A DNA stretch of 64,000 bases from Pseudovirgaria hyperparasitica (Eukaryota > Ascomycota > Dothideomycetes > Acrospermales > Acrospermaceae). Shown one piece after another: positions 19,181-39,675 of this stretch (position 1 is the stretch's first letter; every line of letters starts with the position of its first letter). A program made the translations under genes and the position numbers. The notes under the pieces were generated by a model, which saw only the letters and a program-made list of their open reading frames with translations, was not told where the DNA came from and made no database searches. Location of the stretch: assembly GCF_010093815.1 (NCBI RefSeq), contig NW_022985561.1:500045-564044 (forward strand). Direction: 5' to 3'.

Positions 19181-20518
19181 TTAGAGAGCCCTGCAGTGCT
19201 CCCTCGCTCGCACTGACATCCTTTTGAACATGTCCATGAGTTGCTCAACTTGCCTCTGTAAATCCTTTGCATGCAATCCAACGGCGTGATAAAAGACTTC
19301 GCTCTTCGCCATAAAAGGCGATCCCTGCTCTGTAGTTAAGCTTTCACCACTATTTTGAGTGCCTCGTGTCGAGTTTGGAGATGCTGTCGATGAGCCGCCC
19401 CGCACTGTCGTGGCTCGTGCGTCGACAGGAATCTCCAGGAGGTCTTCCGTTTCCCCAAGTGATTCAAGGAGCAGAAGGGCTGCACTTTTAATCAACTCGC
19501 CGTGAGAGCAGAAACATACTTTATGCAGTTGGGCGAGGCGAAGTCCGCGATAAGAACGGGTTTCCGCAAGACGGTTAAGTGGTTGATTGAGGCTAGGATC
19601 TTGCGATAACGAAGTGACGAAATGGCGAAAAATGAATGTATATATTCGATAGAGCGTCACAAAACAGGACAGGACTAGCAGAATCGTTGGAGTGCTTAGT
19701 GCGGATATAGCACTTTCTTGAGATAGTATTCCCGTGGGCAAAAGGATACTTCGGAACAGCTGAGAGAAGTACAGAGCATCACCAACGGGGTATTCCAGCG
19801 CATCCTTTACTGGGAGTCGTGCAAGTTGCTGCTCGTATCGGTACATCTCGGCAAGAAGGTTGGTGAGATGCAGAAGAGGATCCACGCTTCCGTCTTGTTG
19901 CTCATTGTCGGTTGTAGATTCCAGATCAATTGAGTTCCCGTCCAATGGCCATGATTTCGGCGGAGAACCAACAGAGTCGCTTGTCTCTGCCCTCGCAGGG
20001 TCTTCAATAGGAGATTCGGCTGGCTGGGAACATTCTAACGATGAAGGGTCGCTGTCCATAAGCATTGACTCATTCCAGGAGTCTTGTGCCAATAGACCTC
20101 CTAAATTAGCTTCCCAATATGTTGACACAAGATCGGTGGAGCCTGGTGGCGCGGCGTATGCTTCGTCCGAGTTGAACAACTGCGCTGTCCCGTGAGTAGG
20201 TGTTGATGTGAATGATTGATAAGCCTCAAAACAATCTGGGCTGGGGTTCGGCGTCAATGCGAACACACTCGTTCCAGGAAGTGCCGTTTCTGTGGTCGAA
20301 TCCTTGCATCTTGAGATATCGCTGGATGATGCTCTTGAGCGTGCGGGCCGTGGTGCGCGCGAGCGAGGAATGAAGACACAGGATTCTGCAGTCTTGGCCT
20401 TGATGCATCGTTGACAAGGTGCGCCCGGCGTAGAGTCAGATGTAGGAAGACACCGGAGCTTTTGGCCCCTACAGCGCTCGCACGAGGCGCGAAGCCGAGT
20501 GTTGTCACCTATGGACAT
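19181..20518 (-). CDS. Zn2Cys6 transcription factor, probable cluster regulator
   Basis: Single-exon frame; from the Met at 20518 it encodes 445 residues. The Gal4-type binuclear zinc cluster is at residues 13-47: Cys13, Cys16, Cys23, Cys35, Cys38 and Cys47, read in SCERCRGQKLRCLP and PCQRCIKAKTAESC. The long loop between the third and fourth cysteines is like that of AflR-type regulators. A Ser/Pro/Arg linker follows, then an acidic middle and a C-terminal helical region (residues 230-330 and 400-440) similar in layout to AflR-family proteins. The open frame continues upstream to about 20704, but the zinc cluster is normally N-terminal, so I prefer the start at 20518. It points away from the megasynthase gene, 2.3 kb off, and is the only regulator in the window, so it may control that cluster. 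Confidence 0.88.
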   Translation of the reverse strand: MSIGDNTRLRASCERCRGQKLRCLPTSDSTPGAPCQRCIKAKTAESCVFIPRSRAPRPARSRASSSDISRCKDSTTETALPGTSVFALTPNPSPDCFEAYQSFTSTPTHGTAQLFNSDEAYAAPPGSTDLVSTYWEANLGGLLAQDSWNESMLMDSDPSSLECSQPAESPIEDPARAETSDSVGSPPKSWPLDGNSIDLESTTDNEQQDGSVDPLLHLTNLLAEMYRYEQQLARLPVKDALEYPVGDALYFSQLFRSILLPTGILSQESAISALSTPTILLVLSCFVTLYRIYTFIFRHFVTSLSQDPSLNQPLNRLAETRSYRGLRLAQLHKVCFCSHGELIKSAALLLLESLGETEDLLEIPVDARATTVRGGSSTASPNSTRGTQNSGESLTTEQGSPFMAKSEVFYHAVGLHAKDLQRQVEQLMDMFKRMSVRAREHCRAL

Positions 20519-20541
20519 TGCGTATCGTGATGTTGATTCTT

Positions 20542-20550
20542 CGGGTACCG
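20542..20550. promoter_or_regulatory. CGG-N3-CCG site upstream of regulator gene
   Basis: The sequence CGGGTACCG is an inverted pair of CGG triplets separated by three bases, a usual layout for Zn2Cys6 dimer binding. It lies 24 nt upstream of the preferred start of the Zn2Cys6 gene, so autoregulation is possible. If the longer open frame were used, it would instead be coding. Confidence 0.3.
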
Positions 20551-22422
20551 GAGTATATATCGTTCCCAAAGATGTGAGTAATTTGCCATATCGGAGCCGT
20601 GATGTCGTCGAGCGTGCAGAGGGTAAACCCTGTTTTCTGGTTCGTCCACAGGGGCTCCGCGGGACCCTGCAGCACTCTTTCGTTGCTTGTTTCAATCTTA
20701 CCAATCATGGTATTTGGTGACCATGCTGTCCCTCCAAGCTTCGAACACTATGCGGGATGTAGCGGTGTGGTATTGCACATATTCAGCATACCATGCGGTA
20801 TACGTTTCTTTGGTCTTTCGAGCAATGCACCCATGGCTACGCCCATGTAGGGCGGCGGTGGCAACTTCGGCTTAAGTTTGGGCAGCGAATGATTAGTATC
20901 GACCCCCTATCCTTTGACATTAGTGATTCAATGCGAGCGATCTTTGCTGTGGAAGACAATTCGCTCATGCCTGCTCGGCGAGTAATCAGGTAAGCGCTCT
21001 TAGGTAAAATGCTCTTAGGTAAGTGTTTTCAGATGACGTGATTGTCGGCACCTGTGTATTGGAGTGATCAGCTTCTTTGATGCTTTTTGGAAAGAGGTGC
21101 AGCTGCATGGCATGGGAATTCTGAGCATCTTTCAGCAGCAGACTAGTCAAGCCACGAGTGGAGAGGCTGGTAGCGGGACATGTTTCCGCTCCAATAACAC
21201 CTTCCTCGCCGCGTCTCATCTGCACATTCGCGTTGATGAGCCGCCGCAGTGAAGGATTTGTTGACAAGAAGCTATTCCGTGCGCGATCGCTGCGATCTGA
21301 TTTAATAAGGTAGCAGTGTGGGCCTTGATGTCTTCGTGGCCTACATTGCTCTGAATACAATACGGGTTCAAATTCTTCGCCCGATGAAAATATGCAGCGA
21401 CACGTACCTCTGCAGCAGCAAACTCTATGGTTTTAGCTGGTCGGGTATGGCGTAAATGCATGTATGGTCTGACCCTGGCCCGTCGTTGGGAATTGGACCG
21501 ACTTGCAGTGAGACTTTTCGTTGGCCCGCTATGCTCAATGAGGTAATGCGTTTGAGTAACCATAGGGCCGATGCATAAACATTCAGTCTCGCTTGGTTAA
21601 TGATCTGGTAGAGGACACGCTCACGTCTTCTTAGAATCCAAGACTTACTTTGAAGGTTTTCATACCTGCGAGTTTGTCCGACTCGTTCGGAAACGAGCAG
21701 GTTTCTGCCGCATTTAGAACACGTCGGCAAGCGGCGATTCTGGAATGCTCAGCTCTTTGTGGCACTCGGAATTCCGTATCACCCACTCGGTAAATGCTAC
21801 CAATATCGAAGCCAAATATTACCATCAAGAACACTTTAGCTCTTGCCAGTTTGAATCGTCCGACCCAACCATTACGTTCTCGCTTTTGCAATGAGTCAAA
21901 GACTTAGCAGCTAAGGCCGGGAAGATGACAGTGACTTGTTTGACCAAAGCTCTTGTTGATCTGTAACATAATAGGAACCGTTCGGAACTGCTACACCATG
22001 TTCGCTCAGATGCTTGGTTATGCCTTCCTGCCCATAGCGAGACGTTCGTGCTAGATGTCGGTTAGGCAAATGTAACGGCGTCTAATTTTCAGAGAGCCTC
22101 TCCATCTTCGGAGTTCTGACCAAAATCTAGATCTGAACAGGTCTCGACTAGACTATCATTCAAGTTCCAGCTTGAACGGCTACCAAAAGACATCATGCCC
22201 TCGTGTTTCTATTATACTTTTCCCCTTCCTCAGCCCCTCAAGGCAGGTCATGAATTCAACGTTGAGGCTGTTGGAGGTACTCTCCGTTATTGATGATTGT
22301 CTGACCATATATGAAAAGGAGACCCAGCGCTTGATTCCAAGGTCGAGAAGAGTGCTCACGCACCACTAGTGACGTTCATGAGCTTTATACAATCTAAGCT
22401 AGTCGAATGAGAATTAGCGCGG

Positions 22423-22465
22423 CGCGTCTCAGTAGCTTAAGCTACTAGTAGAGACCTCCGACGCG
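22423..22465. repeat. Nested inverted repeat / hairpin
   Basis: The core AGTAGCTTAAGCTACT at 22431-22446 is a perfect 16-bp palindrome. It is flanked by GTCTC on the left and GAGAC on the right (offset by four bases), and further out by CGCGTC (22423-22428) and GACGCG (22460-22465). It lies about 320 nt beyond the 3' end of the megasynthase gene. Confidence 0.6.
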
Positions 22466-22784
22466 TCTTCTGCTTACATAATCCATCTACCCCCCTCTCA
22501 GATATGCATCACTCATAGATGCTTTCATTCTTTCATTTGTCCGCCCGTTTGTTAAGGACGTTTGATTTCTATCACGGGCTTGTTGCTCTCCCAGCCTTCC
22601 ATCTGTCATTTGCATGCCCACTATCTGTTGCAACCTAGATCCTGGATAAATTTTCGGCCACGAACATGTATTAAGTTCTTCGTCAGTCGTTTAACTTAAT
22701 TGCAATTACTTGGAAACGGCGTACACTTGCGGTCTGACGTGATATCAAGGTAAAGAAACTTTTTGATGAACACACTAAACGCTC

Positions 22785-25700
22785 TCAGACGCCCGTTTTG
22801 AACCCTCGACTGTTGATTGTAATCCGAGTCACATAATTCCTGGCCACTCGCTCGTCTATCTCTGGCACCGGATAGATTTTGCCTCCAAGCACTTCTGGGC
22901 CAACCATGGGGCCAGTGACGAATGCCACTGCATTCTTCTCGTCCTTTACCCCATCAATCAAAGCCATAATACGAGCAAGTGGGGATTCTCGATGGGACGC
23001 AACATGAGCAAATGCCCGTTCTCGCCACTCAACGAATGGCACGATTTCTTGCCCAGCACTGGCCAGACTCAATAACTTCCAGAACGCATTGAAGCTAAGA
23101 GGATTTGCATTCGCAAAGTCGTAATCCTTGCCAACGCTTTCAAAATCTTGCGTCATCTTTGTGACGATGGTTGTAGCCAAATAGTCTACAGGCAGGACTG
23201 CTGCGAGATCTGCTCCGTCCAGCGAGGGGAAGAATCCCATTTCAAGACAACCAGAGATGAAGCTGTGCATAAAATCACCCCGGTCCAACCGAAAGCAGCC
23301 GCTTTCAGTCGAGGCTGTGACGAACGGCAACCGGTAGACAGATGCGTTGGCTCCACGCCAGCGTGCAGCTGCAACCATCCGTTCAGCTGTATACTTTGAA
23401 GTAGCATAGCCATATTCTCCGTCCCCTTCTACCAGCTCGAGGCCCATATACACTGGCAGAGTAGACATGGTGGAGATGAAGTGCACTGTTTTCTCCCGAC
23501 CTTGTGATGCTAAACGTAGTATCTCATGGGTACTAACAATGTTTGGACCGAGATAGTCGTCAAGTGGACGAACCCAGTCTACAAGACCACCTGAATGGCA
23601 GATTGAATCAATAGTCTCTGTCAAATACTGGAATTGTTCATCTGGTAACCCAAACAGTGGTTGTGACATATCCCCGACAATCGCATGAAGAAGTGGCTCA
23701 AAACTGGGTTTCCACAAATCATGGGCTGCTAAAGAATCGAGTAGCCGTTGTCTAGCAGCCTGGTCGGAACCAGCGCGCACGAGACAATGAACAGAAATGC
23801 CCATGCTCAAGAGCTCTGCCGCAATGAAAGCACCCACGAAACCTGTGGCCCCTGTGACAAATACGGCATTGGGTGGCTTAGTGGGTTCCGTAGATCTAAA
23901 TTTAAGAGTTGGGTCCAGATAGCCTTTTTTGATTGCAGCTATATCAATACTCGGTGCAATCGACTCGGATTTCACGGAAGTCGGAGGTGTCGAAATATCG
24001 CCAGTGCTCGAATCGTCTGAATCCATCATGTCTTCTTGTAGGCTGGTGAGAAGAAATTTACTCAGGGCCCGGAGATTTGGATATTGAAAGGCAATCCTGG
24101 CATTCAATTTCAAGCCCGTCGACTTCTCCAGATGATTCCGCACCTGCACTGCTGTCAACGAGTCTATGCCAATATCTTGCAAGGCGCGATCGCTGTCCAC
24201 ATCCCCGCTATGCGCGATTCCTAATATTCTGGCAACGGTCGCCTTCACCGTAGTGAGAACAATCTCCCCTTGCTCAGTGACAGCACTTTGCTTCAGCATA
24301 CTTCGAAGATCTTCTTTCTTGTTCTTGAGGTCTTTTGGCGGGACTTTGCGTCCTTTCTGGCCTTGGAGCAGGCTCAAAAGAGTCGATCTTTCGTCCAGAT
24401 CATTGGAGAGGAACCTATGTAATCGACCTGGATCAAGTACAGCCACCGCCGCAAGTGGGCGACCGCTGCGTATAGCGTTCTCGGTAAGCTGCAGGCTTTC
24501 GTCCGACTGGATCATATTGAAACCCATGCGTTGCCAGCGTGCGAGACCTAATTTACTGAGTTTTTCTGCCATACCACCGCCTGCCCAAGGGCCGTAAGCT
24601 ACTGAGGTTCCTGGAAGTCTTTGAGACCGGCGGAAGTACGCTAGCGCATCAAGGAATGTGTTGGCCGCGGCGTAAGAAGACTGTCCGGGATTTCCAATGA
24701 TACCTGATATGGAAGAGAATATCAAAAACATGTCCAAATCTAGCCCTTGAGTAGATTGGTGCAGATTCCAGGCGCCATGAACTTTGGGCCCAAGGACTCG
24801 ATTGATACGTTCCGGAGTCAAGTCTTGGAGGGCTCCATCGTCCAACAGACCGGCCGTATGAACCACTCCACGTAATGGTCGCAGTGCAGTGAACAAGGAG
24901 ATGGCATTATCCACACTTTCACGAGAAGCGATGTCGCAAGACAATACCGTGGCCTGAGCACCAGCATCGGCAAGCTCTTTGACGAAGCTGTCTGTTCCCG
25001 GTGTGTCCGTTCCCCGACGGGATAGCAACACTATATCTCGTATATTGTGGGAGATGGCAAGCCACATGGCGACACGGCGACCAAGACTTCCAAGACCTCC
25101 AGTGATAATGACCGCTCCATCTGTGCGGAGCAGTTGCGCTCCCCTGGAAGTGATATTCACGTTTTCTAATCTTGGTAGCAAGATCCCGCTGTGTCGTACA
25201 GCGCATTCAGGCTCGTTGATCATGGCTAGTGCTTTCACCAGGCTGGTATCAGCCGCCAAGTTGATGTCTAGATCTACCAAGCGGAGACTCAGCTCGGTGT
25301 GTTCGTTCCGTGCAGTTCGCATTAGTCCCCAGAGAGTTGACGAATGCAAACCCGGAAGCTCTATTTCACCTGAACCTGTATCAACCGCGTTGAGAGTGAC
25401 CCATAGTAGAGGCTGTGCTAGCTGCGCTCTGATGATCGCCTGCAACTGAGCGAAAGCCTCTGTGGTGAGTTGTTCCACGTGATCAACGTCATTTTCGACC
25501 TGAGGCTCCCATACGCATAGAAGCCCAGATAGGTCGGTCCATGTGTTGATATCCTGAAGGTCAACCCAGCGAACCGATAGGCCATTTTGTAGAAGACCAT
25601 CCATGATCTTCATCGACAGTGGGCCGCTGTAGTTCGATCGGATCATCCCCCAAGTACCTGTCAATTTTGACGGGTCTGCAGTTATAGTTCCCTTGCTACT

Positions 25701-28700
25701 GGACTCCTTCCATGTAATTGCGAGCTCGGTCGCACGTGGCTCAATGCTCGCGTCTGGAGGGTCGTTCATGTCTTGCGCCTTGATGGCGTTCATGCTTAGA
25801 CCTTGATGTCCATCTGGTGGTGATAGAGTGTTCTTGCGTAAAGGTGGATATCGCTCCTTATGGAAGGCATACGTTGGTAATTCTACACGCTGGCAACCTT
25901 TTATGGAGCCAAAGTATCCAGTCCAGTCAATGGATATGTCTTTCTTATGCAACTCGGTCAGACTACGTTGTATAGTTGTGGCTTCATCCTTGCCGTGTAT
26001 TATTGATGGTAACCAGGTGATGGTCTGCTCATTCTCAAGGCATGCTGCGCCCATGCCGGCTAAGATCGGTCGAGGTCCCAGTTCAACAAAACTTGTCGTA
26101 TCCTGCAAGAATAACGTCTGGACCGCATCAGTGAAGCGAACAGCTTGGCGGATTTGTTGGACCCAGTAGTCGGGTGTCTCCATCTCGCCTGGCTCGCAAA
26201 GCCTCCCTGTTAGAGTGCTGACAATGGGCAACTGTGGTCTCTTGAATTCCACATTCTCAGCCACCGATCGGAAAGCGGTCAGTATTGTATCCATGTGGTG
26301 CGAATGGAAGGCCTTCGATACGTCAAGCAGCTTGGTCTTCCGTTCGTAGCCAGCAAAATACGAAGCAATCCGCTCGACAGCACTAATATCTCCTGAAGCT
26401 ACCGTTTGCATCGGCGTATTTCGTCCAGCGATGTCAATCTGTCCATTCAATTCCAGTGCATCGATTGCCTTCTCCACCTCCTCCCAGCTGGCCTGAAGAG
26501 AGACCATTGCTCCTTGCATGGGCACAGCTTGCATCAAGCGGCCACGAGCTTCCACTAAAATACATGCGTCAGTCAGGCTCAGTACTCCAGCGACGTGTGC
26601 TGCAACTAGCTCGCCAACCGAGTGGCCACAAAGTACGTCTGGAACTACACCCCAGCTTTTCCATAAGGACCACAAGGCCACTCCGAGCGAAAACAATGCT
26701 GGTTGCGCATAGTCAGTACGCTGCAGCAAGGATGCCGCTTCACTTCCGCTTGGAGCGTGCATAACCTCGAGCAACGGCACATCAAGTCCAGAAAATCGAG
26801 CCACAATTTCATCGAGCGCCACTCGGAAAATGGGGTAGGCTTCGTAGAGGCCCTTGCCCATACCACAAGCTTGACTTCCTTGACCGGTGAAGAGCATTGC
26901 AAGGCGTGAGGTCGAGGTTGCTGGTATGGATGCGGACGAAGTTTGTGCTATTGAGTCAAGTCCACTGATCAGCGTGGTCCGATTTTTAGCCCAGACTATA
27001 TCGCGTCTCCCAAACAGCGTACGTGTAGTAGCGAGGGAGAAAGCAATGTCTCTCAAGCGGAAATTGGGACCCTGCCCATGGGCAGAGATATGTTGTTTGA
27101 GTTTTTCAGCCTGTTGGGCCAGCGATACTTCAGTATGTCCTGATAGGAGAAAAGGCATTGCTACGCTTCGTCTCGATTCCAATGACTGGTAATGTGGCAG
27201 CTCCGTAGCTTCCACATCACTGTCTCCATCATCTTGATCCAACTGATGATCAGGTATCTGTCGTGGAGGCTCCTCCACCACAACATGGGCATTGGTCCCT
27301 GATATTCCAAAAGCTGACACTCCTGCTCGCCGGGCCCGCTTAAGTCGAGGATGCCAGGGCTGTGCCTCCTGCACCAGCGCCATGCGGGAGCCCTCCCAGT
27401 CGACTGCTTGAGTGGGCTTTGTAGCGTGTAAGGTTTGAGGGATCTTATTGTTCTTCATGGCCATAACGACTTTTATTACACCAGCCAGACCAGCTGCAGC
27501 TTGCGTATGACCAAACGAGCTTTTACAACTGCCGACCCAGAGCGGTTCGTCGTCTACTGATCGACTGCCGCCATAGACACCTGCCAGAGCTACCCCTTCA
27601 ATTGGATCGCCGAGTCGGGTGCCCGTCCCATGGGCTTCGACCAAGTCAATATCGCCTGGTGATAGCCGTGACGCCTGTAAGGCTGTCTGAATAAGCCGTT
27701 GCTGCGCTTTGCCACTTGGAACTGTCAGGCCAGGGGCACTTCTACCGCCATGATTGACAGCTGTTCCTCGTATGACTGCATGAATATGATCCTTATCACG
27801 CATAGCATCGCTGAGTCTTTTCAAAACGACAACTGTACACCCTTCAGACCAGCCAGTACCCGAGTTATCGTTCGCGAATGCGCGGCACCTGCCGTCTATT
27901 GACATACCATTAAGTCGGCTGAACTCGACATGCATGGCTGGACTGAGAAGTAGACTTATGCCGCCTGATATCGCTAAGTCACATTCTCCTTGTCGTAGAG
28001 CATTGCATGCTAGATGCGTTGTGACAAGCGACGAAGAGCACGCAGTATCAATAGTCATGTTTGGACCTTCGAGACCAAATGCGTACGAAACTCGGCCGGA
28101 AAGTGTACTACCCGCAGTACCAGTAATGGCGTATCCATCGAGCTCTCCTAAGCTTGGCACTGAGGAGTTGTGGGCGGAGATGGTGCACACTCCCATATAT
28201 ACACCCGTGTTACTGCCACGTAGTTGACCTGCCGTATAGCCTGCACGCTCTAGCCCTTCCCAACACGTCTCGAGGCCAATGCGTTGAGTAGGATCTAAGG
28301 ATCGGGCCTCACGCGGTGAGATCCCAAAAAAGGGGGCGTCGAATTCGTCTACGGAATCGAGAAACCCGCCTCGGCGACAGTACGATAATCCAGCGCTATA
28401 TAGTTCCTCGGCGTCCCATCGATCCTTCGGAACGCTTGTGATGACGTCAGCGCCTCGCTCAAGGAGATCCCAGAACTCCTGAGGGCTGGTCACTCCTCCC
28501 GGGAGCTGGCAAGCCATAGAAACTATGGCTATACTTTCGTCGGCTGTTATGTGATTCGTCGACAGTCCGCGATCTGGCTCAACTACTGAAGTGCCGTGCA
28601 GAAATTCCACAAGCGCTTTGATAGTGAAGTGCTCGAATAGAATCGCGGGAGACAATATTCGATCGAGTAGCTGCTCCAGTGCCTTCTGAACCTTGATTAC

Positions 28701-30416
28701 CCGAATGCTATCTCCTCCGATTTCGAAGAAATTCGCTTCCGTCGTTATGCGATCATGGCCGAGGACTTCTGACCAGATGAGCCGAATACTACTTTCCAAC
28801 CCCGTCTGTGGTTGCTGACTCATTGCTTGCGGCTTAACAACTTCGGTGTGTACTGGGAGAGCTTTGCGATCGATCTTTTTGTTCGGGGTCATCGGGAATT
28901 CCTTCAGTTCTAGATAGAACGCCGGCATCATGTATTCTGGCAGTCGCGATTTTAGGAAAGGTCGTAAGAAAGTCTCAATGCTCCGTGAGTCTTCGCACCC
29001 GTTCTTCGTTTGTGTTTTCTGTTTGCGAATACAGTAAGCCACGAGTCTCCCCTGTTGAGCATTCACTACAGCTTCTGCAATGTCGTCATGATCGGTGATG
29101 GCGGCTTCGATATCTCCAACCTCGATCCTGAAACCGCGAATCTTGACTTGACCATCGGCACGCCCCAAAACGCGTAGGGAATCCAATGAGTCGAAACGTG
29201 CTAGGTCTCCTGTACGATACATCAAGCCCGGGTGGAACGGATTATGTATGAACCGCTCTTGGGTTATCTCAGGCTTTTTGTGGTATCCTCTAGCCAGACT
29301 AGCGCCACCAATGAACAATTCGCCCTCGGTACCAATAGGAACCCTAGAGAGGTCATTGTTATCCAACACATAAAGTCGATAATTATTGATTGGCCTTCCG
29401 ATCACTACAGGCTGGTCTGGACACACTCGCCACATGCTGGCCCAGACAGTCGCTTCCGTAGGGCCGTAAACGTTCCATACAGATTCCGCGCACGAGAGCA
29501 ATCGATTTGCAAGTTTTTGAGGCAGTGCTTCACCACCACATATGATCGTGGAAAGATGGACATCGCTATGCCAGCCAGACTCGAGGATCATTTGCCAAGT
29601 AGCAGGCGTGGCCTGCATTATTGTAATACTATGGCGCTTGATCATACTCATTAGCGCGCGTGGATCCCTCGTTTCTGCCTTCTGGGCAACAACCACAGTC
29701 GCACCGCAGATCAACGGGAGAAAGATTTCTAGCATGGCGATATCAAAAGAGATTGTTGTTACGGCGAGGAGTCGGTCCGATGCTCGACATCCAGGTCCGG
29801 ACGTGCTCTTTATCCCGAGCAACAAGTTGCACAATGCCTCGTGACTGATCTCGACCCCTTTTGGTTTTCCGGTCGAACCTGACGTGTATATCACATACGC
29901 GAGATCATCAGGGTCCACATGACTGTCTGAAGCAGTAGTAGAATGCGGAAGCTTCTTTTCAACAGTGTCGATATTCAGGGCAGGTCCGCGCCAGAAAGAC
30001 ATTGAGCTCTCTGTAGATGCTTCAACGACCACGAGTTTTGGGTCTGCATCTTCCAGCATATGATGAATACGATCCTGGGGAAAAGTTGGATCGATGGGGA
30101 CATATGCGGCACCAGCTTTCAAAACAGCCAGCAGTACGACGACAAGCATAAGAGACCGATCGAGCACGATGCCGACAAGATCGCCACGCTTGACACTATG
30201 TTGTTCTAGTATGCTAGCATATCGGTCCACGAGAGCCCCGAGCTCCGCATAAGATAATTTTTGGTCGCCACAAATTGCGGCGACATTCTCTGAATTCGTC
30301 TTAATTACCTGGTCTATCAGATGATGAAGGCAAAGCCCCAGTGTGGTTGCATCATCTGTAGCATTGAACTCGTCTCCTACGCCCTCCTGAGCTCTACTAG
30401 AGCATGTATCCGACAT
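22785..30416 (-). CDS. Hybrid NRPS-PKS, A-T-KS-AT-KR-ACP-reductase (SwnK-like)
   Basis: Uninterrupted frame of 2543 residues. Domains in order: adenylation (about 30-530; YTSGSTGKPKG near 185, NVYGPTEATVW, YRTGDL, core Lys in NKKIDRKAL near 512), carrier T1 (GGDS near 570), ketosynthase (630-1050; active Cys in DTACSSS near 794, His in EAHGTGT and SSFGHT), acyltransferase (1175-1480; GHSVG near 1265, AFHSHH typical of malonyl-CoA), ketoreductase (1770-1925; GGLGSLG, LDD, YAAAN), ACP (Ser in GIDSL near 2086) and C-terminal thioester reductase (2190-2480; GATGFVG, Tyr and Lys in YATSK). No condensation, DH, ER or methyltransferase domain. It should load an amino acid, add malonyl units, reduce the ketone and release an aldehyde or alcohol. 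The order and length match SwnK of swainsonine synthesis. Reading the Stachelhaus positions by eye gives D-I-L-Q-I-G-V-V-W-K, close to the glycine code. All catalytic motifs look intact. Confidence 0.95.
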   Translation of the reverse strand: MSDTCSSRAQEGVGDEFNATDDATTLGLCLHHLIDQVIKTNSENVAAICGDQKLSYAELGALVDRYASILEQHSVKRGDLVGIVLDRSLMLVVVLLAVLKAGAAYVPIDPTFPQDRIHHMLEDADPKLVVVEASTESSMSFWRGPALNIDTVEKKLPHSTTASDSHVDPDDLAYVIYTSGSTGKPKGVEISHEALCNLLLGIKSTSGPGCRASDRLLAVTTISFDIAMLEIFLPLICGATVVVAQKAETRDPRALMSMIKRHSITIMQATPATWQMILESGWHSDVHLSTIICGGEALPQKLANRLLSCAESVWNVYGPTEATVWASMWRVCPDQPVVIGRPINNYRLYVLDNNDLSRVPIGTEGELFIGGASLARGYHKKPEITQERFIHNPFHPGLMYRTGDLARFDSLDSLRVLGRADGQVKIRGFRIEVGDIEAAITDHDDIAEAVVNAQQGRLVAYCIRKQKTQTKNGCEDSRSIETFLRPFLKSRLPEYMMPAFYLELKEFPMTPNKKIDRKALPVHTEVVKPQAMSQQPQTGLESSIRLIWSEVLGHDRITTEANFFEIGGDSIRVIKVQKALEQLLDRILSPAILFEHFTIKALVEFLHGTSVVEPDRGLSTNHITADESIAIVSMACQLPGGVTSPQEFWDLLERGADVITSVPKDRWDAEELYSAGLSYCRRGGFLDSVDEFDAPFFGISPREARSLDPTQRIGLETCWEGLERAGYTAGQLRGSNTGVYMGVCTISAHNSSVPSLGELDGYAITGTAGSTLSGRVSYAFGLEGPNMTIDTACSSSLVTTHLACNALRQGECDLAISGGISLLLSPAMHVEFSRLNGMSIDGRCRAFANDNSGTGWSEGCTVVVLKRLSDAMRDKDHIHAVIRGTAVNHGGRSAPGLTVPSGKAQQRLIQTALQASRLSPGDIDLVEAHGTGTRLGDPIEGVALAGVYGGSRSVDDEPLWVGSCKSSFGHTQAAAGLAGVIKVVMAMKNNKIPQTLHATKPTQAVDWEGSRMALVQEAQPWHPRLKRARRAGVSAFGISGTNAHVVVEEPPRQIPDHQLDQDDGDSDVEATELPHYQSLESRRSVAMPFLLSGHTEVSLAQQAEKLKQHISAHGQGPNFRLRDIAFSLATTRTLFGRRDIVWAKNRTTLISGLDSIAQTSSASIPATSTSRLAMLFTGQGSQACGMGKGLYEAYPIFRVALDEIVARFSGLDVPLLEVMHAPSGSEAASLLQRTDYAQPALFSLGVALWSLWKSWGVVPDVLCGHSVGELVAAHVAGVLSLTDACILVEARGRLMQAVPMQGAMVSLQASWEEVEKAIDALELNGQIDIAGRNTPMQTVASGDISAVERIASYFAGYERKTKLLDVSKAFHSHHMDTILTAFRSVAENVEFKRPQLPIVSTLTGRLCEPGEMETPDYWVQQIRQAVRFTDAVQTLFLQDTTSFVELGPRPILAGMGAACLENEQTITWLPSIIHGKDEATTIQRSLTELHKKDISIDWTGYFGSIKGCQRVELPTYAFHKERYPPLRKNTLSPPDGHQGLSMNAIKAQDMNDPPDASIEPRATELAITWKESSSKGTITADPSKLTGTWGMIRSNYSGPLSMKIMDGLLQNGLSVRWVDLQDINTWTDLSGLLCVWEPQVENDVDHVEQLTTEAFAQLQAIIRAQLAQPLLWVTLNAVDTGSGEIELPGLHSSTLWGLMRTARNEHTELSLRLVDLDINLAADTSLVKALAMINEPECAVRHSGILLPRLENVNITSRGAQLLRTDGAVIITGGLGSLGRRVAMWLAISHNIRDIVLLSRRGTDTPGTDSFVKELADAGAQATVLSCDIASRESVDNAISLFTALRPLRGVVHTAGLLDDGALQDLTPERINRVLGPKVHGAWNLHQSTQGLDLDMFLIFSSISGIIGNPGQSSYAAANTFLDALAYFRRSQRLPGTSVAYGPWAGGGMAEKLSKLGLARWQRMGFNMIQSDESLQLTENAIRSGRPLAAVAVLDPGRLHRFLSNDLDERSTLLSLLQGQKGRKVPPKDLKNKKEDLRSMLKQSAVTEQGEIVLTTVKATVARILGIAHSGDVDSDRALQDIGIDSLTAVQVRNHLEKSTGLKLNARIAFQYPNLRALSKFLLTSLQEDMMDSDDSSTGDISTPPTSVKSESIAPSIDIAAIKKGYLDPTLKFRSTEPTKPPNAVFVTGATGFVGAFIAAELLSMGISVHCLVRAGSDQAARQRLLDSLAAHDLWKPSFEPLLHAIVGDMSQPLFGLPDEQFQYLTETIDSICHSGGLVDWVRPLDDYLGPNIVSTHEILRLASQGREKTVHFISTMSTLPVYMGLELVEGDGEYGYATSKYTAERMVAAARWRGANASVYRLPFVTASTESGCFRLDRGDFMHSFISGCLEMGFFPSLDGADLAAVLPVDYLATTIVTKMTQDFESVGKDYDFANANPLSFNAFWKLLSLASAGQEIVPFVEWRERAFAHVASHRESPLARIMALIDGVKDEKNAVAFVTGPMVGPEVLGGKIYPVPEIDERVARNYVTRITINSRGFKTGV

Positions 30417-30775
30417 TGAGGGTAGGTCAAAACTTTGTCATCTGGAGTTGATGTGCTATGAATGTTGAATATCAGCACGAACCAGCGTGATCAGCACCAC
30501 TTACAATAGATTACGCTCCAATTATGCGGCAAATTTTCGTATCCATCGATGCCGTTCAAAATATAGGAGTTACGAGATCAGCCTGAGGGGCGTTTTAAAA
30601 AAAAACTATAGAGTCAGACGAGTATCATGGGGGTATATGCTAATATATGGTGAGTAAGACATTCCGAGAATAAGGTTCAAGGATATCGGAGGTCTGATTT
30701 TCCATTTGTGTGCTTTCTTTCGGTTGTTTAGTTCCTAAATCTGGCATTCTGCGAGCACGATAACGGGGCATATCT

Positions 30776-30784
30776 CGGAGTCCG
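30776..30784. promoter_or_regulatory. CGG-N3-CCG candidate Zn2Cys6 site
   Basis: CGGAGTCCG, an inverted CGG pair with a 3-bp spacer, inside the divergent cluster promoter, about 360 nt upstream of the megasynthase start. Confidence 0.4.
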
Positions 30785-31130
30785 TCATCTTGATGGGGAC
30801 TCTTTTCTATTTACTAGTACGCAAACGATATAGAGTATTATGCTGGTCATAGTGGACCAATTCGCCCTAGTCATGCCGGCTGGTAAGTATTCGAGTCTGG
30901 CGTTCTTGTGACAATCAGTTTTCATTTGATCACCAATAGGACGTGATACGGTCCCCAAGTAGGTAGTTTAGTGGCGTAGAATCTAACAGCGCAGCTTTTT
31001 CTTTTCTAAGAATGACCTCTTCTCAATGTATAAATTTTCTCTTAGCAAGATCTGCACTGCCAGCTCCACTACTTTCGATCGTCGCCAATTATAATACATG
31101 GCACGCTGCCACGTGGTTGTGATGCCATAT

Positions 31131-31141
31131 TCGGAACCCGA
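31131..31141. promoter_or_regulatory. TCGG-N3-CCGA candidate Zn2Cys6 site
   Basis: TCGGAACCCGA, inverted TCGG arms with a 3-bp spacer, upstream of the preferred start of the PLP-enzyme gene. Confidence 0.35.
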
Positions 31142-31155
31142 CTGCCATAAAAAAC

Positions 31156-31172
31156 AATTCCGAGTCGGAATT
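31156..31172. promoter_or_regulatory. 17-bp perfect palindrome with CCG-AGT-CGG core
   Basis: AATTCCGAGTCGGAATT reads the same on both strands about its central G. The CCGAGTC half recurs at 33225-33231 and 33261-33267, upstream of the MFS gene. Confidence 0.4.
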
Positions 31173-31346
31173 TTGTCTCATTTTTACGAAGTTGGAAACC
31201 CGATCCTCCACAGGCCATCATCTATCAAGCGCCCTTCTAAGGTTCTGCAACCGCAAACTAATATAACTACGCTTGTCCCCACACATGGCCATCCAGTTCG
31301 TGAAACACTACCAAGCCCTATTACGCTTGCTCATAAAAATCTCACA

Positions 31347-32632
31347 ATGGCACCCGGAATCACACTTGACAACGCAGTGGAAGACTTTGTCTTCACCAAG
31401 ACAGCTGGTTCCGAGAAGAACCATGCAACTGTTACAGAAACAGTTCTTGAGGCCATTGACAATGAAAAAGCAGCCCAGCCAAAACAGGCACCACAACCTG
31501 AGCCCCAAAATCAGCTAGACCTCTCCTCTATCGCGTGGGCTCACTGTCGCGAGAGCTCCAACAATTTCATATCCGATTTTTACACCAAACCGACCCTTCC
31601 TATGCTAGAAGCCATTATCCGTACGACACTCGACGACGGTGACAATGACGAAGACGCTACAACAAACGACTTGCAAGACTATGTTGCAGGCCTTTTAGGA
31701 CACGAGAGTGCTTTGTTAGTCCCGACTGGTACTATCACAATTCTTACCATGTTCGATCACGTGCTTACGACCCTCTAGGTACGATGGGTAACCAAGTATC
31801 CTTACGGACTGCCCTAGGCAATCCACCGCACTCGATTCTGTGTGACTATCGCGGCCACATAATGCACTTCGAGGGCGGTGGACCGTCTGGAATCTGCGGC
31901 ACGCTCGTCCGAAGCGTAGTACCTGCGAATGAGCACCATCTCACGCTTGCAGATGTTCAGAGATTTGCCACGCTACGGAATACCATGTACGACTGTCCTA
32001 CGCGCGTAATTGCACTTGAGAATCCCATGGAAGGACGCATTCTGCCGCTGAGCGACATCCAGGCCATCTCGAACTGGGCACGGGAACGGGGAATCCATAT
32101 GCATCTGGACGGGGCCCGGCTATGGGAGGCTGTTGCAGCAGGTGCCGGATCACTCGAAGAAATCGGCAAGTGTTTTGATAGTATCCAGGTGTGCTTTACC
32201 AAGGGTCTTGGCGCACCACTCGGCAGTATGGTCATTGGAAAGAAAGACTTCATTGCTAGAGCCAAATGGAGCCGAAAACTACTCGGTGGTGGGACCAGGG
32301 CATCGGGTGTTATTGCAGCGCCGGCACGAGTCGCGATTGATGATGTTCTATTTGGCGGCAAGATGAAGGCTGCCCAGGACAAAGCGCAACGGGCATCCGA
32401 ATTATGGACCGAACTTGGGGGTAAGCTTTTGGAGCGCAGGGAGACAAATATGGTATGGCTGGACTACGAAGGATCAGGGGTAGACATGGAAGGTTTCTTT
32501 AAGTTAGCAAAGGAGGAATATGGGCTGAAGTTGGGTGGTGTGATCCCAGAGAGACTGGTCTTTCATTATCAGATCTCGGACGAGTCGTTTGAAAAGTTGT
32601 GTGCACTGTTCCGGAGGGCTTTGGCAAAATGA
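31347..32632 (+). CDS. Threonine aldolase-fold PLP enzyme of the cluster
   Basis: Two exons: 31347-31728 and 31779-32632, 411 residues. The intron 31729-31778 (GTACTA to CTAG) restores LVPTG-TMGNQ. The family (fold type I PLP, L-threonine aldolase / beta-eliminating lyase) splits beta-hydroxy amino acids into glycine and an aldehyde; some fungal cluster members act as alanine racemases (ToxG, SimB). Visible motifs: NFISDFYTKPTLPMLEAI at the N-terminal substrate loop, GHESALLVPTGTMGNQ, MHLDGARLWEA with the PLP-ring Asp, and the Schiff-base Lys in CFTKGLGAPLGS. About 45 extra N-terminal residues (MAPGITLDNAVEDF onward) precede the core. The Met at 31347 has a good context; an in-frame ATG at 31098 would add 83 residues. 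Adjacent and divergent to the megasynthase, so it may supply or epimerise its amino acid. Confidence 0.88.
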
Positions 32633-33543
32633 AGGGCTTCGTACAGGGGGCAGTGAGTGATTGGATACTTAAAGATTAGTCCAAGTACAACAGGCTTGCG
32701 TAATTCTGCTAAACATTTGTGATCACGCCTTGTGGGGTTACACCAAGAGCCGTGTGTAAGCGAATGACTGTCTGCACAAACACGGCACATGCACATCCAT
32801 GCCACCGTGTTGACTTTTTTTATTGATACTGCATGCTCGGCGAAAAGACCGAAAATTAAAACTGCCGTCTGACGGGTTGTTGAGTTTCGTCAGCGAGTCT
32901 ATAACAGGGGCTTGTAAATGTCCGTAATCACTCTTTTGAGAAGGGGCACACACTAAATGATTACTTCGCCACGCCTGATATGTCTGATGATGTGAGTTTG
33001 AGTTTTCAATTTTTGTTTCCCGCAGCTATAAATCTCGTGGTGATTTTTTGCCTATACAGTAGTTGGTTCCACTGGCGCTATTGATGACTTGCGTTAGGCA
33101 CCCGCTATGTATGGCGGCATATAGGCCGGGAGTGGGGTGACGACGGCGTGGCTTTCTTAGGGCGTCCCGCGGTACGCGTTGGGCTTCTCTAAGCTAGTAC
33201 TAGCATGAGCATCCGGACCCACTTCCGAGTCTGTTTACTCCCAGCCGTTCGGGTCATGGTCCGAGTCTTGAGCCCGCTAGTCCGTATGCAAATGTTTTGC
33301 TTTCCGACTTCTCCGAATCACTTGGTCCACTTTTGGCTCGTCTATTTCTCGTACTCCTTGTCAGCCAATCTGCTTTGTCGAGATGTTGGGGGCTTCACCC
33401 GCACGCAGCTGCTTTATTACCTGTTGACCGCCCTTTCTTTTGCTTTTCCTTAGGATCTGCATTGCATCTGCATTGCATTGCATTTGCTTTCTGTAGCGCC
33501 TACACTCATCTAATACGCACGCCGCAAAAACGCCACTCTCACA
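32633..33543. promoter_or_regulatory. Spacer and promoter of the MFS gene
   Basis: About 910 nt without a gene. It contains two CCGAGTC heptamers (33225-33231 and 33261-33267) that match the half-site of the palindrome at 31156-31172, and a short GCATTGCAT-type tandem repeat at about 33456-33486. Confidence 0.45.
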
Positions 33544-35091
33544 ATGGTGTACCGACCTAGCGAGGATAAATCCCACAGCTCAATATACCTGCATGATGTA
33601 CGTATTGCCTCAAGCACGTCGACGAACAATGCTTCGAAGGCATCCCAGTCTACTATTGTGGATGCTGAGCATCAGTTCGGGGAGAGCGAGAGTGTACCGA
33701 ACAATGGCATCGAGGGCTTCGATTACTCCACTTTACCACCTGTTGATACCGGAAAAGATGCTTGGTTGTGCCTCCTCGCGGTCTTCACCATTGAGGTCAT
33801 GATATTAGGTAAGTTGATCCTGTGTGATATCCCGTCTTTTATGTGCGCAGCACCGAACTTGACATTGCATGCAGGCTATGGCTTCTCGTATGGTGTTTTC
33901 CAGGACTTCTACGCCGTAAATGAGCCTTTTGCATCATCCTCATCCAATAGTTCTGTGATTGGTGTCCTCACGACCGTAGGCATTCTTGCCCAGCATATCT
34001 CAAACTTGCAGCTAAATTTGTGAAAGGGCATTCTCTTCCTCACTACCCCGATATTCCTTCCATTATGCCGCCACTATCCCCAATGGGCCCGCTGGATGGC
34101 GACGTTCGGTGTCTTTCTCGCGCTAATATCGAACATTGCATCCTCTTTCTGTACCAAAATTCCCCAACTGATTGGTACACAAGGTGTGATACTCGGGCTC
34201 GCTGGCGGCCTGGCATTCTGTCCATGCCTGGTCTATATTGACCAATGGTTCGACAAACGCAAAGGCCTCGCATTTGGCATATTCGGCTCTGGCGCTGGAT
34301 TCGGAGGAGTCTTTATTCCCCTCATGCTACGTGCCATGCTCAATAACGTGGGCTTCGCTACCACGATGCGCATCTGGGCGGGAATTCATGCAGGTATCGG
34401 ACTCACTGCAGCCTATTTCGTCAAGCCACGTCTACCCCCGGCGGCAACTCTCACAAGACCATTTTGGAACCCGCGTGCTCTGCGCTCCCGGTTCTTTCTG
34501 ATGAACCAACTAGCAAACACGATCCAGGGCGCGGGATACTATCTCCCAGGAATCTATCTACCAACCTATGCTCGCGAGATTCTTGGTGCATCAGCCTGGC
34601 CAGCCACGGTATCACTCATGATATTCAACATAAGTGCAACTATCGGCCTCATACTTATGGGCCACTTCACTGACCGTTTCACTTCGCGCACCTGTATCTT
34701 GGTATCCTCGCTTGGCAGCACGATTGCGGCCTTGATAGTATGGGGTCTTACCACTCATATAGCAACACTATATACATTCAGCATCCTCTTTGGTCTATTT
34801 TCAGGCAGCTGGCCCGCCGTATGGCCTGCAGTCATGCGAGAGACGGCCCGTCGGGGCGAGGAGCGTGGTTTTGGGTATGTTGACACACTAATGGTGTATT
34901 CATTATTGTGTGTCGGGCGAGGAGTTGGCAATATCGTTTCTGGACCACTAAGCGAAGCTCTCACAAAGGACATGCCGTGGAAAGGGGCAGTCATTGGCGG
35001 GTATGGAAGTGGCTATGGAGCACTGATTTTGTTCTCTGGGCTGACGAGCTTGGTGAGCGGTATTAACACCTTATGGTATCAAAAGCTATAG
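33544..35091 (+). CDS. MFS transporter, monocarboxylate-permease type
   Basis: Three exons: 33544-33808, 33875-33975 and 34027-35091, about 476 residues. This is the fungal MCT-like branch of the major facilitator superfamily, common as exporters in biosynthetic clusters. The soluble N-terminal tail of about 70 residues ends DTGKDAWLCLLAVF, where the first span begins. Family marks include GYGFSYGVFQDFY in the first loop, GLAGGLAFCPCLVYIDQWFDKRKGLAFGI around spans 4-5, and GFGYVDTLMVYSLLCVGRGVGN. About 12 spans can be counted. Introns 33809-33874 (GTAAGT) and 33976-34026 (GTAGGC) restore LGYGFS and VLTT-GILFL. It may export the megasynthase product or take up a precursor. Confidence 0.88.
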
Positions 35092-38000
35092 TTGAAGTTT
35101 TAAAAGTATTTTGCTGATTTATAGAATACAAACGATAGACATGATAGACAGTTTTATATAGAGGATCAATATACTTATCAGGCTGCTGTACATAGCTCAT
35201 ACAAAGATATACAACAACACTGCTGCTGTTGATACTCGCCCCCACTGTCAGACAAGACAGATCTAGATGCAATCCTACGAGATCCAGTAGCCCCTGAGAA
35301 GGGCCGACTCAATCCATCGTATCTAGCAAGTTTAACGAGCGGCCCTGGAGTACCGCATTGGCCAACGCCAAGTCTTACGAATTGCGGGACTTGCCGTTAT
35401 TATCATAAGCCCTAAACAAAGCCAGACTATTAGAATAATTACCCGTAGTCGCATGAGTCAAAATCCCAGTCACTGCGTTTGAAATAGCTTTGCCATTCAC
35501 TGCCGTGTTCGAGGAGGTAGCATCCGACGTTGCCTTGAAAAAGGCAGGGGTTTCTTCCCGGGCAAGTAGAGGTAGGCAATAATACAGTCATCAGCTGTGA
35601 ACCCGCTAATCACTTAACTTCCAATGATCCAACCGGTAATCATTGGTACAATGTGACACAATTATTCATCCGTCACACAATGATTGTTCACTTATACAAT
35701 CGTTAGTCATTTATGGAATCAGTAATCAATTACTCAATTAGTAATGAGCCATCACTACTTAGCAGAGCCTCGTCTAGTAATATTCGTGCTCCACTACTCA
35801 ATGGAACAATGACTTTCTGACATTTTCATGTCGAATATTTATATAGATGTCAATCTCATAATATAATTGTAGCGTGTAAATCGTCGAGTGCTCATATAAG
35901 ATGTTTAGTCTAGTTCTAGTACTATCCTAATAGCAGTCACGGTAGTATATCTAGATAGAGGTTATTTGTGAATCTAATAGCCGCCCAGGCCGTCATGTCT
36001 GCCGGTAAGCCTAGACTTACAATCGGGAGGTGCGTCAGCGTTGGAATTAAGCATGTTCGTTCAGGCGAACTCGCTGACTATGGGGGTCAATCTCGAGCTG
36101 AGTGTTAAGAAAGTACAATGAAAGATAACAATCTACTGTCACTTTAGTAGAATGATCATGCAATGATGAGTGCGAGAGGATATGCGGTCATACACGTCTT
36201 AGAATTCTCTTACAAGGACTTTGTACCTGGAGTCTTGACGTAGGCGGAAGACATGTGTAGCTCTGATTCGAAAGTCTAGGGGTTGACTTGCTGGCAATTC
36301 CTACATCGTGACCCCCAAGGAGGCCTACCCCATATGAATCTAATAGTACTAAGCTTACAACGGAAGTGCTCGATATTGACGATTTCACCGTCCATATCTC
36401 TATCATCAGGAGCTCATAATATCAGGACGATATCATTATTTGCCTAGTCTACCTACTGTGAGTAGAGTTTACTCCTGAAACGGATGCTATCATAGACAAC
36501 TGAACTTGCTGAAAGCACAACCCCTATAACAATGTACACCCCTTTCGGCAGAGTCTGTACCAAACCTCCAAGTTTTGAACATTTCGTAGACTTCTCTACT
36601 GGTGTGAAAACACAGAATATGCTGTTCGAGACATACTTTATAGAGCTCTACGTGCTGCTTACATACTATTGTTAGATATACGATGATACAAAACCCTGTA
36701 TGCCCCTAGTGTGTCAGTAACATTAGGATAAGAGGACCATGTAGCACGTGATATGTTGTCATCAATGTTGATTCTGGATTTCTCTATGATTATCAGCTAT
36801 TTAATGAGTGTTCTAAGCATTTAGTCAAGAATGCAGAGTATGTCAGGCTAAGTCTACACGTATAGCCATGTTCCTTCGATTTCCTATTTTTCGAAAAGCT
36901 TGTTTTCTTCCTTTACATTCGAGTTTCTTAAGTCAATTAAAATACTTATTAGCTATTCTATTCTCTTATTGGGAAGAATAGGTAGCTTTCAAAGATCGTG
37001 TATACAATACTAGCATATAGTTATTCCAAGTCTAAATATTTTGAATTTAGCAACCTACCTAGGATATAATCTTTTAGTCCCAATAGGAATAGGCATGATA
37101 CTAGATCGAACGTTTATTTCGATTTATTTAGACTTGAAAATTGCTATATCTAGTATTCCGTGCACAGCTCTTAAATGCTACTTAGTTTCCTAACAAGAGC
37201 ATATCTACTAAGTGACTAGGCTGTTTGAAAGTCACTAGTTGTTTAAGATTTAATAGCAAGGATATAGGAACGGACACATCTTATTGTCGACTTAGTCTGT
37301 CTGTCATGCAACATTACTAGTGCTATATTACCTCCCTATGTGTCTCCATCGTCCTACCAGGGGTAGTACTTGTCCACTACTTGGCCTTCTCTCCTTGCTG
37401 GTAGCGGTCGTCTATGATACGAAACTCCTAATAGAGATCTTCTCTCAAGATCAGACGCATTATTATCACATACATTCCTGCTCTCTTATCTCCTAGGCGT
37501 AAATTAATCATTTATCTTAAACACCACCCATTGCACATCTCTCTACACCTTGAACGTAGTCACAATCTCCGCAATAAAATACTCGCAGAATACAGCATTA
37601 CAATCCATAGCCCCTGTTCCCGCTTCCGGCATCAATACCAGTCCACACCAAAATCTAATTTTCTGCCTATTATCTTCGTATACTCGCACATTACTACTTA
37701 TGTAGCTTTTAATAAATCCACCCTCCGCCTTGCACCGCCCGTAGCTAACTTCATACAATAAGCCACGCGCATGCTTAGTCGATCTCAAACCGAAATCGCA
37801 CCATATTCCAGCTTCAATCCCCGAACGATACCCATCTGCTAGAGGGAGTAATACCTACCTACTAGTACCTAGCAACCCCTAGTGACTTCTCGTGAGACCT
37901 TTGGGCAGTCCTACGCTAATACAGTGCACTAATATAGGGTAACGAGACGGATCTTCGAGAGATAGATATATAAAATCCTAGGAGATAGCAGCTACGTAGG

Positions 38001-38260
38001 AGGAGAGGGGGCCGGAGAGTGCTCTGGAGTATGGATTTATGACGTTCCGGTTTAGTCCATTGGCTAGAGCAGCAGCAGCAGCAGTAGCAGCAATAGCACC
38101 ACCTCTGCTCCCTTCCATCCCTAGTCTATCTACTATAGCCTGCGAGTCGCTTGTATTGTGGGGTAAGCTCCTTACGTTAATGTTGCATATCACCCGACCG
38201 AACCGCTCCTTACCACGTCCATGTTCCACACTACACTGCACCGCATACGCTTACTTGACT
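35092..38260. other. Gene-free AT-rich block
   Basis: About 3.2 kb with no credible gene. From about 35600 to 37500 the sequence is AT-rich with many TA steps and no open frame above 75 codons. A degenerate AGTAATCA/ATTACT motif recurs at 35630-35750. The block may be an old repeat altered by RIP, but I found no terminal repeats, target duplication or coding remnant, so I name no element. A short CAG-type run lies at 38070-38090. Confidence 0.5.
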
Positions 38261-38390
38261 ATCCATCTCCGTACCTATGTCTCTATCTACCTCCCTAGCA
38301 ATCTCCCTAGCCCCTCCCTATCCGTCTCCCGATCCATCTCTCTATCTATCTCCCTATTGTAATCCATGTTAACACCCCTATCAACAACCA

Positions 38391-38598
38391 TACCACACAA
38401 CACCACACAACACCACACAACACCACACAACACCACACAACACCACACAACACCACACAACACCACACAACACCACACAACACCACACAACANNNNNNNN
38501 NNCAACACCACACAACACCACACAACACCACACAACACCACACAACACCACACAACACCACACAACACCACACAACACCACACAACACCACACAACAT
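38391..38598. repeat. Decamer satellite (CCACACAACA)n with assembly gap
   Basis: At least 19 visible copies of a 10-bp unit made only of C and A on the + strand. The array is broken by ten N at 38493-38502, a gap placeholder, so its true length is unknown. Flanks are also pyrimidine- or C/A-biased. The Thr/His- and Cys/Val-rich open frames seen here are artefacts of the repeat. Confidence 0.97.
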
Positions 38599-39675
38599 CA
38601 ACCTCCCAACGAACCTCCCAATCCCAACGCACATTCCCATCCCTGTTCAACCTCTCCATCGACACGCACATCAACATTACCATCAAATCTCCACATCAAC
38701 CTCCCCTAGTCAACACCCACACCAACAACCTTCACACCTTCCAATCTGAAAACAGCCAAAGTAGCGTATTATACAGTCCAGACAAACCAGCAATTCACCA
38801 TAGCATACCGCACTACCACTACCACACTACTATACACTACTACCATTCTGAATATCTCTCTCTATTAGCACATCTTCCATTTCCTTCCATTTTTAGCTTA
38901 GAACCCCGTCTACCATAACCCCTACCAACCCCAAACAGCATACCCCCAACCGGTATCAATCCCAAACACATTATTACTAACAAACCCCCCTCCCCCTTTC
39001 TCCCCTCATAAACCTCTCCTAAACCCCCTCCAAACCCCCTCCTAAACAATTCCATAAACCATAAACCACAAGCAAGATAGATATACAAAGAGCATACAAC
39101 AAAACAAACAGATCTAAAAGACCGACAAAGACCCACTTGGCTAAACGATTGGAAGTCGGTATATACATGTTATTCTACTATCATTACTACCATCATTATT
39201 ATTACTACCATATTTCTTTATGACTATAACTATAACTATAACTACAACTACAACTATACCTACAACTCTAATTACTAGTATTATTAGCATTATCAGCAGT
39301 CTAGACAAGGTGTTTTTCTTCTTTTCTTTTTGGACAAGGGGGGGAGGGCGGACAGTTCGGTGTTTAGTAAGAATTTGGCCAAAAGGTAAAAAAAAAACAG
39401 AGGGGGGGGGGGGGGGGGGCTATAAGACGGGGTTTGGGTAAGTGGTAGAATGGATTTTTTGTGTGAGGTTCGAATGGAGCAGTATATCGAGGAGATAGAT
39501 GGGTTGGATCGGGTGACTCGACTGGATGGATATATAGGTCTAAGAGTAAGAAGTTGGTATAATCATTTCAAGTAATCGAGCAAGCGGACTTTTGTAATGC
39601 TGTATCATAATCTGAACCCCCCTATCCCACGCCACGCCACCCACCACCCACCCTCCCCCTAAAAAGAAAAACCCC
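38599..39675. other. Low-complexity intergenic sequence
   Basis: No gene seen. It contains ACTATA/ACTACA microsatellites (39217-39270), a 10-nt A run (39388-39397) and an 18-nt G homopolymer (39402-39419), then a C-rich stretch before the next gene. The A and G runs make the base count here unreliable. Confidence 0.6.

Follow-up and report, generated by a model that had tools for sequence, protein, structure and literature searches.

A glycine-type SwnK relative beside a threonine-aldolase-type gene: a candidate biosynthetic cluster in Pseudovirgaria hyperparasitica

Published orthologs of SwnK, the hybrid nonribosomal peptide synthetase-polyketide synthase (NRPS-PKS) of SWN clusters, are more than 70% identical to each other (PMC5473758). 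Relatives with the same architecture have also been described. The SwnK-like1 and SwnK-like2 clades include, for instance, PKS-NRPS3 of Marssonina coronaria, SwnK-like2 lacks SWN synteny, and the passages on these clades report no experimentally supported member (PMC7864672); likewise, Slafractonia leguminicola contains SwnK together with swnK1 and swnK2, a combination called exclusive to it among swainsonine producers in 2024 (PMC11052177). SwnK-type synthases outside SWN clusters are known, and the published passages that describe them assign them no substrate. Here we analyse a locus of the fungus Pseudovirgaria hyperparasitica, whose gene content looks like that of a filamentous ascomycete, contained in a stretch of 64,000 nucleotides (the window; positions 500045-564044 of contig C13, from a genome of 35.0 Mb in 59 contigs). 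Open reading frames (ORFs) and Pfam matches define in it four genes, at window positions 19181-35091, for a putative Zn2Cys6 regulator, an NRPS-PKS, a pyridoxal phosphate (PLP) enzyme and a transporter of the major facilitator superfamily (MFS). We read them as a small biosynthetic cluster, present in the genome in two paralogous copies, whose product would derive from glycine and malonyl units and perhaps be extended by the PLP enzyme, a reading that we prefer to its alternatives and hold only tentatively.

A glycine-type pocket in a SwnK-type megasynthase

The megasynthase is encoded by an open frame of 2550 codons (22785-30437, minus strand), with its first ATG at 30416. Pfam searches, with E values of up to 0.001, placed on it the models AMP-binding, PP-binding (two stretches), ketoacyl-synt (N- and C-terminal), Acyl_transf_1, KR and NAD_binding_4, and none for a dehydratase, enoylreductase or methyltransferase. 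A search of the same genome, in which 19 of 118 candidates were scored, retrieved two further synthases of this architecture, on contigs C2 and C1 (these contigs, as well as C7, C8, C11 and C40 below, belong to the same genome as the window). In a three-way alignment of these proteins the catalytic motifs of all the window domains are intact, including the Rossmann motif and the Y-x3-K of the thioester reductase (R) domain. Together, these results confirm the claim of an earlier note on this DNA that the protein is a SwnK-type synthase, of order A-T-KS-AT-KR-ACP-reductase, with every motif in place. The AFH motif of its AT domain presumably denotes the malonyl type.

The nine pocket residues of the A domain, which we take to follow the GrsA numbering, are DILQIGVVW in the window and DILQLGLVW in the C2 synthase. 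The structures 4ZXH (AB3403, DILQLGVVW) and 5U89 (DhbF, DILQLGLIW) are the top matches to the window specificity stretch among the 53 PDB sequences listed; the window pocket agrees with them at eight and six of the nine positions, respectively, and that of C2 at eight with each. Both structures are listed as glycine-activating, and the DhbF pocket is occluded by a Trp bonded to a Gln (PMC11253843); both residues are present in the window and C2 A domains. The pocket of the C1 synthase reads DMLQIGV followed by a gap and a Tyr, with no Trp, and its contrast with the window lies in the second residue and in the pair 330-331. A glycine-type code was found in none of the five other A domains listed in the genome search, one of which (L049) is gapped there. 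Judging from its pocket code, the window A domain seems to load glycine.

The synthase on C1 belongs to a different gene set. Six of the seven swn gene kinds are represented at positions 293156-309447 of this contig, by genes for an amino acid permease, a pair of PhyH dioxygenases, a class I/II aminotransferase, a SwnK-order synthase and an NmrA-like reductase; no Pfam model matched an additional ORF (310265-310915). By gene content this is an SWN-type cluster. With the C1 protein standing in as the only SwnK compared, the window synthase shows 45.5% identity (1115/2451) and the C2 synthase 46.1%, both below the identity among published SwnK orthologs. Additionally, none of the 29 distinct window stretches covered by Pfam (28 of the 32 ORFs of at least 200 aa plus one MFS exon) matches PhyH or NmrA, and none of the genome-wide matches to these models (4 and 32, respectively) lies in the window. 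The absence of swn neighbours, as earlier claimed, thus stands, and we rejected the window as a true SWN locus.

The earlier note had also reasoned that its proposal would fall if the KS domain placed among true SwnK proteins and swn genes occurred elsewhere in the genome. Such genes do occur, on C1, but they are accompanied by a synthase of their own, and the window KS groups with that of C2 (support 94/91, just short of the mark that the program gives as a star) within a clade of the window, C2 and C1 domains (100/99). The tree contains 16 rows, namely the three SwnK-type domains, five other KS domains of the genome and eight from Flavobacterium; the latter came from a scan of bacterial contigs, where two loci with 34-35% identity served only as tree rows. 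It was drawn from part of the 37 KS matches of the genome, omitting three whose matches begin inside the domain (L016, L017 and L018) and four further loci of genes already included (L003, L004, L008 and L020), and it has long branches for C8:1197k and C7:697k. The glycine-type pocket, without a match in C1, and the lack of a linked SWN-type reductase or dioxygenase support the previous inference that the product would differ from swainsonine.

A paralogous locus and the aldolase-type enzyme

The C2 synthase (C2:2328413-2336193) contains two ordinary introns and is 52.1% identical to that of the window (1286/2468 aligned residues). Read in the sense of the window, it is accompanied by genes for a Zn2Cys6 protein, a PLP enzyme, a 2OG-Fe(II) oxygenase and an MFS transporter, in the order regulator, synthase, PLP enzyme, oxygenase and transporter. 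Gene order and orientation are those of the window, with the oxygenase as the sole addition, and this recurrence supports the earlier suggestion that the four genes form one pathway. A remnant of the oxygenase gene in the window was sought and rejected, as no window ORF of at least 40 aa matches it at an E value of 1e-4.

The PLP proteins of the two loci are 59.4% identical (230/387), and show 47.9% (window) and 47.4% (C2) identity with a third strong member of the family, on C11. The third exons of the two MFS genes are 45.8% identical, and a third transporter (C7:1533777-1534868; L045, L046) is as near to both as these are to each other. No synthase-like frame appears among the ORFs listed within ca. 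10 kb of the C7 gene, and no PF01212 match was found on C7. A four-row tree leaves the window, C2 and C7 transporters unresolved, and we rejected them as proof of shared cluster descent. The window and C2 regulators yield an alignment score of 109, against a maximum of 69 in 300 shuffles, which falls to 57, against 60, after removing the zinc cluster; their common descent was hence dropped as evidence, and the window regulator, used as query against the whole genome, retrieved only itself. Because of these identity patterns at the window, C2, C7 and C11, we consider that the pairing of synthase and PLP gene across the two loci appears firm, and that of the transporter with the synthase fair.

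The second exon of the window PLP gene matches PF01212 with an E value of 9.1e-53, and the best solved relatives of the enzyme are L-allo-threonine aldolases (E 4.2e-50). Nine residues are conserved in L-threonine aldolases (G60, T61, N64, H85, E90, E138, D168, R171 and R313; PMC6546723); the window enzyme keeps all of them, as well as the PLP lysine. At other positions mapped on the Aeromonas enzyme it differs (T10 to F, V31 to D, Y32 to N, H128 to Y, N142 to E, S198 to T and Q232 to A), and T10, V31, Y32 and H128 are counted among the positions facing the donor side chain (PMC6546723). By eye on the alignment, the C2 enzyme has F10, Y128 and T198, as in the window, and no Tyr at position 32, whereas the C11 protein has T10, Y32, H128 and S198. 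With their catalytic set intact and donor-facing positions changed, the cluster enzymes appear to be functional enzymes of the aldolase type whose pocket has shifted.

A candidate pathway and its alternatives

From the intact domains we deduce that glycyl-T, formed by the A domain, would undergo a single condensation with malonyl-ACP to 4-amino-3-oxobutanoyl-ACP, that the KR domain would reduce its beta-keto group to the 3-hydroxy form, and that the R domain would reductively release 4-amino-3-hydroxybutanal, from which cyclization could give the imine 4-hydroxy-1-pyrroline. SwnR or SwnN is proposed to reduce the corresponding iminium of the SWN pathway (PMC5473758); no counterpart of these imine reductases is linked in the window, and the constant partner is instead the threonine-aldolase-type enzyme. 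As the most likely next step, this enzyme would attack the released aldehyde or imine with a glycine-type carbanion, yielding 2,6-diamino-3,5-dihydroxyhexanoate or (4-hydroxypyrrolidin-2-yl)glycine. A precedent for such a reaction would be ObiH, which couples a pathway aldehyde with a glycine enolate (PMC6668435). A glycine-primed SwnK-type synthase with a dedicated, remodelled aldolase-type enzyme that captures the aldehyde or imine through a C-C bond would be a new kind of pathway, with a dihydroxylysine-like or hydroxypyrrolidinyl-glycine amino acid as product, further oxidised in the C2 branch; this more specific proposal we regard as doubtful.

Several results weigh against the preferred reading. 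In its H128Y variant, the Aeromonas enzyme shows less aldol conversion with glycine and more with D-alanine and D-serine (PMC6546723), and a Tyr occupies this position in both cluster enzymes, which disfavours plain glycine as the donor; for this reason we lowered our confidence both in the reading as a whole and in C-C capture. The window and C1 pockets agree at six of nine residues, the regulators of the two loci are alike in the zinc cluster only, and the transporters of the two clusters are as distant from each other as from that of C7. Likewise, tailoring oxygenases and reductases are lacking in the window copy, so that later steps would be coded elsewhere or absent, and both activity and product are predictions from sequence.

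The nearest rival to this reading, which we consider unlikely, is that the PLP enzyme merely supplies a precursor, cleaving threonine or allo-threonine to glycine, and that the pathway ends in the C4 amino-hydroxy-aldehyde or in a form of it that is cyclized to the imine, reduced or dehydrated. Threonine cleavage is the natural direction of the family, and would suit an enzyme that keeps all nine aldolase residues and has L-allo-threonine aldolases as closest solved relatives, as well as a glycine-type A-domain code. Nevertheless, the genome already has the C11 member, whose residues at positions 10, 32, 128 and 198 are the usual ones, and mere glycine supply does not call for the pocket changes F10, Y128 and T198 common to the cluster copies. 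The behaviour of H128Y, which favours a D-alanine donor, would be in line with an enzyme that racemizes alanine, as ToxG and SimB do, or acts on it otherwise, the A domain then taking alanine or another small residue. SimB shares 43% identity with a threonine aldolase from the same genome and 42% with ToxG, and racemases of this kind thus occur in fungal clusters (PMC6168864). This is an improbable explanation, because the pocket Trp fills the side-chain space as in glycine A domains, and the Phe at the donor-facing position 10 would be expected to narrow the space for a methyl group.

We give the lowest probability, close to dismissal, to a divergent SwnK for which pipecolate or a similar cyclic amino acid remains the substrate and whose product is another indolizidine. 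The architecture of SwnK, the KS clade common with the C1 synthase and the six shared pocket residues are what such a protein would display, but the pocket-closing Trp is present in the window and absent in C1, no SWN-type genes are linked, and identity with the C1 synthase is well under that among published SwnK orthologs. The preferred reading, in turn, makes the locus a source of a concrete prediction, a glycine starter with an aldolase-type PLP partner, and the cluster points to a small nitrogen compound still to be found. The genome also offers a natural comparison between one pocket linked to SWN genes and two of the glycine type, the contrast falling on the residue that fills the side-chain space. 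If our reading were true, the family would be a platform for short amino-aldehydes from varied starters, and would trap them in a new manner.

Features of the locus and comparison with known systems

The four genes of the earlier note were all found (Table 1), although the start of the MFS gene had to be corrected from 34024 to 33544 and the PLP gene was delimited with an intron. The assignment of the regulator stands in part: the six-Cys pattern is plain in both the window and C2 proteins, but the PF00172 score of the former (16.9 bits) lies under the curated Pfam cut-off of 21, that of its C2 counterpart being 22.5. From their families, the Zn2Cys6 protein would regulate the cluster genes and the MFS protein would export the product.

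Table 1. Predicted features of the cluster, in window positions
Feature	Position	Strand	Basis
Putative Zn2Cys6 regulator gene, 445 aa, one exon	19181..20518	-	ORF; PF00172 E 0.0071; placed like C2 regulator
NRPS-PKS megasynthase, A-T-KS-AT-KR-ACP-R, 2543 aa, one exon	22785..30416	-	Open frame, Pfam, motifs
Thioester reductase (R) domain, NAD_binding_4	22818..23870	-	Pfam, motif
ACP, IGIDSL	24048..24260	-	Pfam, motif
KR domain, Ser-Tyr-Asn, LDD motif	24582..25118	-	Pfam, motif
AT domain, GHSVG + AFH	25938..26900	-	Pfam, motif
KS domain, Cys-His-His intact	27270..28538	-	Pfam, motif, KS tree
T domain 1, GGDS	28593..28781	-	Pfam, motif
A domain, pocket DILQIGVVW, glycine type	28872..30326	-	Pfam, pocket alignment
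Divergent promoter, synthase/PLP gene, 930 bp	30417..31346	.	Gene models, promoter alignment
Threonine-aldolase-type PLP enzyme, 411 aa, intron 31729-31778 (50 nt)	31347..32632	+	PF01212, gene model, alignments
MFS transporter, 476 aa, introns 33809-33874 and 33976-34026	33544..35091	+	Pfam, gene model

The divergent promoter of the C2 locus (C2:2327621-2328475) is 855 bp long. We rejected a shared promoter element, as local alignment of the two divergent promoters, even at its best, does not exceed what shuffled sequences give. The motif TCCGAGTC occurs six times in the window, a count reached by 1 of 100 shuffles, with three copies in cluster promoters, and was not found in the C2 cluster promoters. 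Both divergent promoters carry the 10-mers TGAGTAAGAC and GATATCGGAG, arranged in one common order at distances of 31 and 39 bp.

Directly 3' of the MFS gene, positions 35001-40000 are AT-rich and resemble a mutated repeat at the cluster edge, with dinucleotide ratios like those left by repeat-induced point mutation (RIP), according to index thresholds that we assume to apply: TpA/ApT is 0.97-1.23, and the second RIP index is 0.90 at 37-38 kb and 0.86 at 39-40 kb. The sole 5.8S match reported in the genome lies on C40 (ca. 7541-7694), where the 5.8S, internal transcribed spacer and large-subunit sequences look AT-mutated, as if RIP had struck a copy of the ribosomal DNA. Elsewhere in the window, an 862-codon frame (10413-13001) has a HET (heterokaryon incompatibility) domain (PF06985, E 8.7e-12), and adjoining ORFs at 54483-56925 have NB-ARC and TPR domains, as in a fungal NLR gene.

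The earlier note had presented the cluster as a candidate undescribed one. The synthase type is already in print (PMC7864672, PMC11052177). A search of titles and abstract openings, with subscription papers largely outside it, gave no glycine-coded SwnK relative beside a threonine-aldolase-type gene, and no paper in the literature search matched the literal code string DILQLGLIWK.

With SwnK and its cluster, the locus has in common the A-T-KS-AT-KR-ACP-R order, one elongation and reductive release, according to the published passages (PMC5473758). It differs in lacking linked swnH1, swnH2, swnN, swnR, swnA and swnT, with PLP aldolase-type and MFS genes instead, and in a synthase with a glycine-type pocket that is distant from the SWN-linked synthase of its own genome. 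SwnK-like1 and SwnK-like2 share the architecture, SwnK-like2 also being found without SWN synteny, and the comparison is one of description, as the passages concerned give neither a substrate code nor a PLP neighbour (PMC7864672). The genome of S. leguminicola is described as having two SwnK paralogs beside an SWN gene set (PMC5473758, PMC11052177). The synthase count is the same here, in what may be a swainsonine producer; however, swnK1 and swnK2 have a reported identity of 53.1-55.4% with SwnK and a supposed role in slaframine production (PMC5473758, PMC11052177), against the lower values found here with C1.

For the PLP enzyme, SimB and ToxG are likewise threonine aldolase relatives placed in fungal NRPS clusters, a likeness drawn from their description, although they serve D-Ala for cyclic peptides (PMC6168864). 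The L-threonine transaldolase ObiH is also a PLP enzyme, and couples a glycine enolate with an aldehyde of its pathway (PMC6668435; see also PMC5490192). Unlike the enzyme proposed here, it is bacterial and is described as acting before the NRPS (PMC6668435), whereas in P. hyperparasitica the aldehyde would come from the megasynthase.

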